Assembly (NCBI RefSeq): GCF_002100115.1
Contig: NZ_ANBM01000008.1
Coordinates: forward strand, 1-64,000
From: Anaerovibrio sp. JC8
GTDB lineage: Bacteria; Bacillota; Negativicutes; Selenomonadales; Selenomonadaceae
Direction: 5' to 3'
Length of the DNA stretch: 64,000 nt
Of the stretch, positions 55,492-56,058 are shown piece after piece (positions within the stretch are counted from its first letter, which is position 1; each line of letters opens with the position of its first letter). A program made the translations under genes and the position numbers. The notes under the pieces are model-generated. The model ran no database searches. It was not told the origin of the DNA and saw nothing but the letters and a program-made list of their open reading frames with translations.

Positions 55492-55520
55492 TTTACTATA
55501 AAAGTCAACTATTGTATAAT
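55492..55520 (+). promoter_or_regulatory. Promoter of the AdoMet-decarboxylase-like gene
   Basis: TTTACT (55492-55497), a 17-base spacer and TATAAT (55515-55520) lie 37 bases before the chosen TTG start, indicating expression independent of lgt. Confidence 0.72.
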
Positions 55521-55556
55521 TATGTAGATAAATATGTTTCGAAAGGGGTATTTTAC

Positions 55557-56024
55557 TTGAGTATAATCGCCCGTCACCTTACAGTTGACATGTACAAGTG
55601 CAAAAATTCCTGCTTTGATGATGTGCAGGCCTTACAGGCTACATTAAAAACCCTGCTGATGGAAAGCAATCTTGATATTCTGTCCTCCAGCAGCCAGATT
55701 ATGTCAGATGACCATATTGCCATTGTTCTGCTTTTTGACGAGGGCCATATTACGGTTCACGCCTTCCCGGACCTCCAGTATGTTTCCGCAGATGCCTTTA
55801 TCTGTGAGGAGGATGCTGCTCCTGAGGAAATTTTCAGCTCCATCAGAAAGCTGTTTAAGCCGGAAAAGACCAAGACCACTATCCTGAAGCGTGGTGACTT
55901 TGGCACCAATACAGATATGAAGCCAAAGACCAAGACCAAGGTTGCGCCTCTCCGCCGTATTCATAACACCGGCAGCAAGGTCATCAACATGCTGAAGAAC
56001 AAGGACAGCAATAAAGACGATTAA
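55557..56024 (+). CDS. S-adenosylmethionine decarboxylase homologue lacking the pyruvoyl serine
   Basis: A 155-residue protein collinear with bacterial class 1b AdoMet decarboxylase (SpeH/SpeD). ARHLTVDMYKC is at 5-15, then DEGHITVHAFPD (61-72) and SADAFICEED (77-86). Compared from memory with the Thermotoga enzyme, Glu62, His68 and Cys83 are kept, but the self-cleaving Ser63 is Gly63 (codon GGC at 55743). Without it no pyruvoyl cofactor can form. A basic C-terminal tail (about 113-155) is extra. The TTG start has AAAGGGG eight bases upstream. No spermidine synthase is nearby. Role unknown; possibly a pseudoenzyme. Confidence 0.82.
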   Translation: MSIIARHLTVDMYKCKNSCFDDVQALQATLKTLLMESNLDILSSSSQIMSDDHIAIVLLFDEGHITVHAFPDLQYVSADAFICEEDAAPEEIFSSIRKLFKPEKTKTTILKRGDFGTNTDMKPKTKTKVAPLRRIHNTGSKVINMLKNKDSNKDD

Positions 56025-56030
56025 TTGATA

Positions 56031-56058
56031 AAAACTCCTGATTCTCAGGAGTTTTTTT
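56031..56058 (+). terminator. Terminator after the AdoMet-decarboxylase-like gene
   Basis: Stem AAAACTCCTGA/TCAGGAGTTTT with a 3-base loop is followed by TTT on the plus strand. Being nearly symmetric it may also act on the minus strand. Confidence 0.88.

Follow-up and report, generated by a model that had tools for sequence, protein, structure and literature searches.

A tailed AdoMet decarboxylase homologue of the Negativicutes with a conserved C-terminal addition and a variable pyruvoyl site

AdoMet decarboxylase (AdoMetDC), the spermidine-making enzyme, converts an internal serine, Ser63, into its pyruvoyl cofactor. The window, by which is meant the whole 64,000-nucleotide stretch of Anaerovibrio sp. 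JC8 DNA analyzed here, contains a gene for an AdoMetDC-like protein with glycine at this position and an additional C-terminal tail (Table 1). Its score of 76.1 bits against TIGR03330 barely exceeds the cut-off of 75.65, so automatic annotation would call the product an AdoMet decarboxylase. The locus raises the question of whether the protein is such an enzyme and, if not, which part of it is maintained. The open-access papers, the scope of our literature search, yielded nothing on the group of tailed proteins to which it belongs.

Table 1. Features of the gene and of the protein it encodes, in window coordinates
Feature	Position	Strand	Basis
Sigma-70-like promoter, TTTACT-17-TATAAT	55492..55520	+	match to consensus alone
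Likely ribosome-binding site, CGAAAGGGG (GAAAGGGG stretch directly 5' of the start)	55540..55548	+	by-eye reading
Gene for tailed AdoMetDC-like protein, 155 aa, TTG start, TAA stop	55557..56024	+	ORF translation
AdoMetDC-fold domain, residues 4-107	55566..55877	+	PF02675, AlphaFold, Foldseek
E62-G63-H64 (E-S-H in AdoMetDC); GGC codon at 55743-55745	55740..55748	+	alignment; Gly in 80/80 contigs
Neck R112-G-D-F-G-x3-D-M-K-P-K, residues 112-124	55890..55928	+	best-conserved stretch in the Negativicutes
Tail beta-strand, residues 124-129	55926..55943	+	AlphaFold, two distant members
Basic amphipathic C-terminal helix, residues 131-151	55947..56009	+	AlphaFold; hydrophobic moment
Intrinsic terminator hairpin, stem entering T tract	~56030..56056	+	fold -14.3 kcal/mol, z -4.66

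A sequence-only reading of the locus had credited the gene with a near-consensus promoter, a ribosome-binding site and a terminator of its own. Direct reading of the DNA 5' of the start codon showed a likely candidate for the second of these, and the folding energy of the hairpin downstream of the stop codon bore out the third; a simple terminator scan did not pick up this hairpin, probably because its stem extends into the T tract. The promoter sequence is indeed present, but four promoter-like sites were seen where 2.1 were expected, so that taken alone it is weak evidence. No Rfam elements were found near the gene.

Over residues 4–115 the window protein aligns with the AdoMetDC of T. maritima without a gap, so that residue numbering is common to both, and the collinearity with the bacterial enzyme that had been claimed holds. 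The PF02675 profile matches residues 7–113 (E 7.7e-23). The AlphaFold model has a pLDDT of 88 overall and mostly above 90 in the domain, with a value of 92 for the model of a distant member of the Negativicutes group. In Foldseek searches the best match of the window model was the T. maritima enzyme (1tlu, TMt 0.84), and the matches also took in the S63A non-processing mutant of that enzyme; comparison with a viral structure library returned AdoMetDC-like phage proteins and weak matches, and nothing else. In these models the protein retains the alpha/beta AdoMetDC fold. By fold and family profile it belongs with the class 1b enzymes (SpeD of B. subtilis and T. maritima; PF02675, TIGR03330; 1tlu, 1tmi), whose 113-residue domain is collinear with its own. 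TIGR03330, an NCBIfam 'equivalog', matched all 58 Negativicutes members scanned.

The active site differs from that of class 1b SpeD. Glu62, His64 and the processing and catalytic residues His68 and Cys83 are the same in the window protein and the T. maritima enzyme, whereas Ser63 is replaced by glycine, as the earlier reading had stated. Ser55, Phe49 and Trp70 are also changed, to Ala, Met and Phe, respectively; their roles we assume from the T. maritima and human enzymes, that of Phe49 and Trp70 presumably being contact with the adenine. Further differences from class 1b SpeD are the added strand and basic amphipathic helix and a gene that is not linked to speE. Judged from its sequence, the window protein, which is without the serine needed for the pyruvoyl cofactor, cannot be an AdoMetDC enzyme, and the same holds for many of its relatives, so that a protein routinely labelled as a polyamine enzyme must have another job.

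The glycine is no peculiarity of this strain. It is present in all 80 homologous contigs retrieved, nearly all from Selenomonadaceae or genera of that family, and among relatives in Anaerovibrio, the nearest named relatives at about 95% protein identity, codon 63 is variously GGC, GGA, GGG and GGT. Between the window gene and these relatives dN is 0.02–0.13 in the domain and 0–0.06 in the tail, with a domain dS of about 0.7 or more, giving dN/dS of about 0.03–0.1. These values show strong purifying selection on the gene and a glycine held by selection in the Anaerovibrio lineage, in agreement with the proposal that the gene is maintained.

Across the Negativicutes as a whole the picture at this position is different, so that the question of whether Gly63 is conserved is answered with yes for the Selenomonadaceae read and with no for the class. 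Among 93 proteins from about 34 families, site 63 is glycine in 56% and serine in 31%, followed by Ala, Cys, Thr and others, the residues seen in place of serine being G, A, C, T, F and V. Many families carry E-S-H together with Cys83; other loci have E-S-H with Cys83 exchanged for F, R, S or N (L119, L122, L144, L196 and L175). Gly63 occurs with a retained Cys83 in families f1, f2, f5, f6 and f17, Ala63 with Phe83 in f4, and Cys, Thr or Phe at 63 with Phe83 in f25; these family states are quoted from the first class alignment, a second alignment having displaced the motif in part of the distant families. In a tree of 96 rows, built with the site columns excluded, the families came out as clades; the 35 groups required 34 changes, as few as there can be, a sign of vertical inheritance. 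On this tree Ser/non-Ser at site 63 changed at least 11 times and Cys83 at least 12 times, counts that are approximate given the few columns, some long branches and 30 open forks. Since site 63 varies across the class while the tail is kept, the tail, and not the glycine, is the class-wide conserved feature.

The earlier description of a basic tail of about 40 residues is accurate: from R112 the tail of the window protein has about 44 residues, 11 of them K/R and 5 D/E. R112 and P123 are invariant across the 93 proteins, and G113, D114, D120 and F115 are present in 90% or more. Identity between families is 56% over residues 104–127, 32% over the domain and 26% over the loop before the site (residues 46–64), the lowest conservation among the parts measured. 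By this comparison the best-conserved part of the protein is its C-terminal addition, consisting of the neck, a predicted beta-strand and a predicted basic amphipathic helix of 20–33 residues. Both AlphaFold models place the strand ahead of a long helix, which in the distant member spans residues 131–163. The window helix has a hydrophobic moment of 0.60, exceeding shuffles of its own tail, and a net charge of +4; across the class the hydrophobic moment of the best 18-residue tail segment has a median of 0.55, its net charge is about +5, and in 88% of members amphipathicity reaches p under 0.1 against shuffles of the member's own tail. A search of the tail against solved structures gave no credible sequence match, only a short-stretch match to a repeat protein and one chance match.

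The combination of SpeD domain, neck and basic helix in a single copy defines a tailed group of SpeD-like proteins in the Negativicutes, to which the window protein belongs. PF02675 matches were found in 148 of 151 genomes of the window's family. Run on 300 Negativicutes genomes, a 54-position profile restricted to the tail matched 283 of them, including 223 of the 227 good ones, and covered 92 of the 97 genera, with rarely more than one match per genome. The genomes with no match are mostly incomplete; two (G164 and G242) look like true losses, and in G164 no SpeD-like protein of any kind was found. A wider tail profile, applied to 398 genomes of the phylum, about 380 of them outside the class, found class members only, barring three weak matches. 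The latter (5e-5 to 1e-3) were rejected as chance: two contained in-frame stops, and the third spanned 24 of 52 positions. Together, tree and profile counts show vertical inheritance of the tailed protein, one copy to a genome, in almost all of the Negativicutes sampled.

We hold with high confidence that the tailed protein is not an AdoMet decarboxylase and that the tail is what is selected. It is probable, at a distinctly lower level of confidence, that the protein descends from class 1b AdoMetDC as a non-enzymatic form specific to the class, with a scaffold or binding role exercised through the tail, the conserved job, we infer, needing no catalysis. Of the three functions first suggested, a non-catalytic AdoMet/polyamine sensor, a partner activating another decarboxylase and something new, the last ranks best. 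In the mechanism that we propose, the AdoMetDC fold would act as a scaffold, a dimer if the class 1b pattern holds, and would offer the basic helices to a negatively charged partner, which could be the cytoplasmic membrane on its inner side or the surface of an RNA or a ribosome; a ligand in the old pocket (H64, H68, D11, Y13, C15 and D79 being kept) might modulate tail function. Spermidine synthesis would fall to other genes of the genome, namely those for the E. coli-type SpeD and SpeE and those of CASDH/CASDC type. Binding of the tail to an anionic surface is put forward tentatively, with somewhat less than an even chance, and it may be that the helix does no more than pack against the domain or the dimer mate. 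A more far-reaching version is rather unlikely: here the protein would define the class and carry a cell function found in Negativicutes alone, for example as a membrane-tethered, polyamine-responsive factor connected with the polyamine-modified wall and outer-membrane anchoring typical of the class, or as a polyamine-responsive regulator binding ribosomes or RNA. The many families with a full E-S-H and Cys83 imply that in some members self-processing and enzyme activity may persist. The class-wide function could include a catalytic step that is dispensable, and the retention of H64 and H68 at 97% could reflect retained chemistry.

The alternative that survives best, doubtful yet deserving of consideration, is a ligand sensor, in which AdoMet, its decarboxylated form or a polyamine would still bind in the dead site and the tail would signal to RNA, DNA or protein. 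Pocket residues H64, H68, D11, Y13, C15, Y70 and D79 are present at about 90% or more among the 93 proteins despite the repeated loss of S63 and C83, and the polyamine biology of the Negativicutes is unusual, their peptidoglycan being polyamine-modified (PMC10628300). However, the retained pocket residues may be structural alone, F49 is found in just 29% of members and W70 is exchanged for Tyr or Phe, a change that counts against AdoMet binding insofar as the two presumably contact the adenine.

A prozyme-like activator, which would join the genome's E. coli-type SpeD in a heterodimer and activate it, is improbable. The trypanosome AdoMetDC prozyme (5tvm), a dead paralogue that activates a live enzyme (PMC5201418), provides the precedent of a maintained homologue without a pyruvoyl site. 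The window genome does encode both proteins, which answers affirmatively the question of whether a serine-bearing copy exists: its second PF02675 protein is a 266-aa, E. coli-type SpeD with D-K-S-H (C5:208433-209230), the first gene of a run that continues with a PLP-dependent Orn/Lys/Arg decarboxylase (PF01276), SpeE, an arginase-family protein and saccharopine-dehydrogenase-like (CASDH-type) and PLP-dependent (CASDC-type) genes. These separate SpeD/SpeE and CASDH/CASDC-type genes indicate that spermidine synthesis is served apart from the tailed protein. Against activation, the tailed protein is the sole SpeD in 15 of 80 sampled genomes, ten of which also lack a speE match; completeness is about 95–100% for at least 13 of the 15, and three (G104, G214 and G218) consist of one contig each. 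A search of the 15 with the E. coli-type SpeD of the window genome found none, while the controls (G021 and G153) were positive, and in none of the speE operons read was the tailed gene present. The near-complete genomes make a prozyme-like role unlikely, and as a general function it was rejected on this co-occurrence. The trypanosome prozyme is, moreover, a class 2, two-domain protein dependent on a live partner, whereas the tailed protein has a single domain with a tail and is kept where there is no other SpeD.

Several observations on polyamine genes stand beside these counts. Both spermidine routes, SpeD/SpeE and CASDH/CASDC-type, lie in one run in the window genome (G000 contig 5, L163:2606-9231). 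In three other loci (L157 of G104, L158 of G009 and L161 of G164) speE adjoins CASDH/CASDC-type genes, and no serine-bearing SpeD was found. Three Negativicutes genomes (loci L165, L166 and L168) have a canonical short class 1b SpeD, with E-S-H and T-W-P and no tail, besides the tailed protein.

A decarboxylase still catalytic and shifted in substrate toward arginine or ornithine is very improbable for the window protein. Neofunctionalized SpeD proteins of this kind are known: SpeDA and SpeDC are pyruvoyl-dependent arginine and ornithine decarboxylases derived from SpeD (PMC10407285), and, as with the tailed protein, these SpeD relatives occur alongside a second SpeD or where SpeE is missing. 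They are enzymes that keep the serine, as many Negativicutes members with E-S-H and Cys83 also do, but the serine is missing from the window protein and from all Selenomonadaceae members read, and the polyamine operon of the window genome has a PLP-dependent decarboxylase, the PF01276 protein adjoining speE, whereas genomes of the SpeDA/SpeDC kind would be expected to lack canonical PLP arginine/ornithine decarboxylases. Glycine, Negativicutes, Selenomonas and Veillonella go unmentioned in the main text of the same paper. The paper does describe a SpeD–SpeDC fusion of Victivallis vadensis with a defunct C-terminal SpeDC domain (PMC10407285), likewise a unit of SpeD fold, from a bacterium, in which processing has been lost; that domain is part of a fusion in one lineage, whereas the tailed protein stands alone and is class-wide.

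Catalysis by the fold without a pyruvoyl group, for example SAM-lyase-like chemistry, has an equally slight chance: the pocket histidines are retained and Foldseek matched the window model weakly to a phage SAM lyase (6zm9, E 1.4e-4), but with a TM-score of merely 0.36–0.42 and an rmsd of 7.9, and the loop of residues 46–64 is poorly conserved between families. A recent mutation, a pseudogene or a sequencing error is ruled out for practical purposes by the uniform glycine, its four synonymous codons, the low dN/dS and the near-zero dN of the tail.

A near-universal single-copy protein fits the model of a core polyamine enzyme, yet many members are without the defining residue, and the finding corrects spermidine-pathway predictions in the Negativicutes. 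Here a self-processing site has been lost again and again within one orthologous family, in a clear series provided by nature, and the family points to a function specific to this class of diderm Firmicutes, in which the polyamine-linked envelope is still an open field of research.

Gene neighborhood did not yield a function: no universal neighbor of the tailed gene was found across the class loci compared, and an operon-based function was rejected, the shared context looking like inherited synteny. In many Selenomonadaceae loci lgt lies immediately upstream on the same strand, an arrangement frequent there only, other families differing. In five loci from other families (L142, L143, L145, L154 and L155) the tailed gene lies a few kb from the end of an rRNA operon. 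Genes of the ctsR-mcsA-mcsB-clpC type are near it in some of the rRNA-adjacent families and in others, and in several families outside the Selenomonadaceae in which it lies by the rRNA operon a nitronate-monooxygenase-like or flavodiiron-type gene is found nearby.
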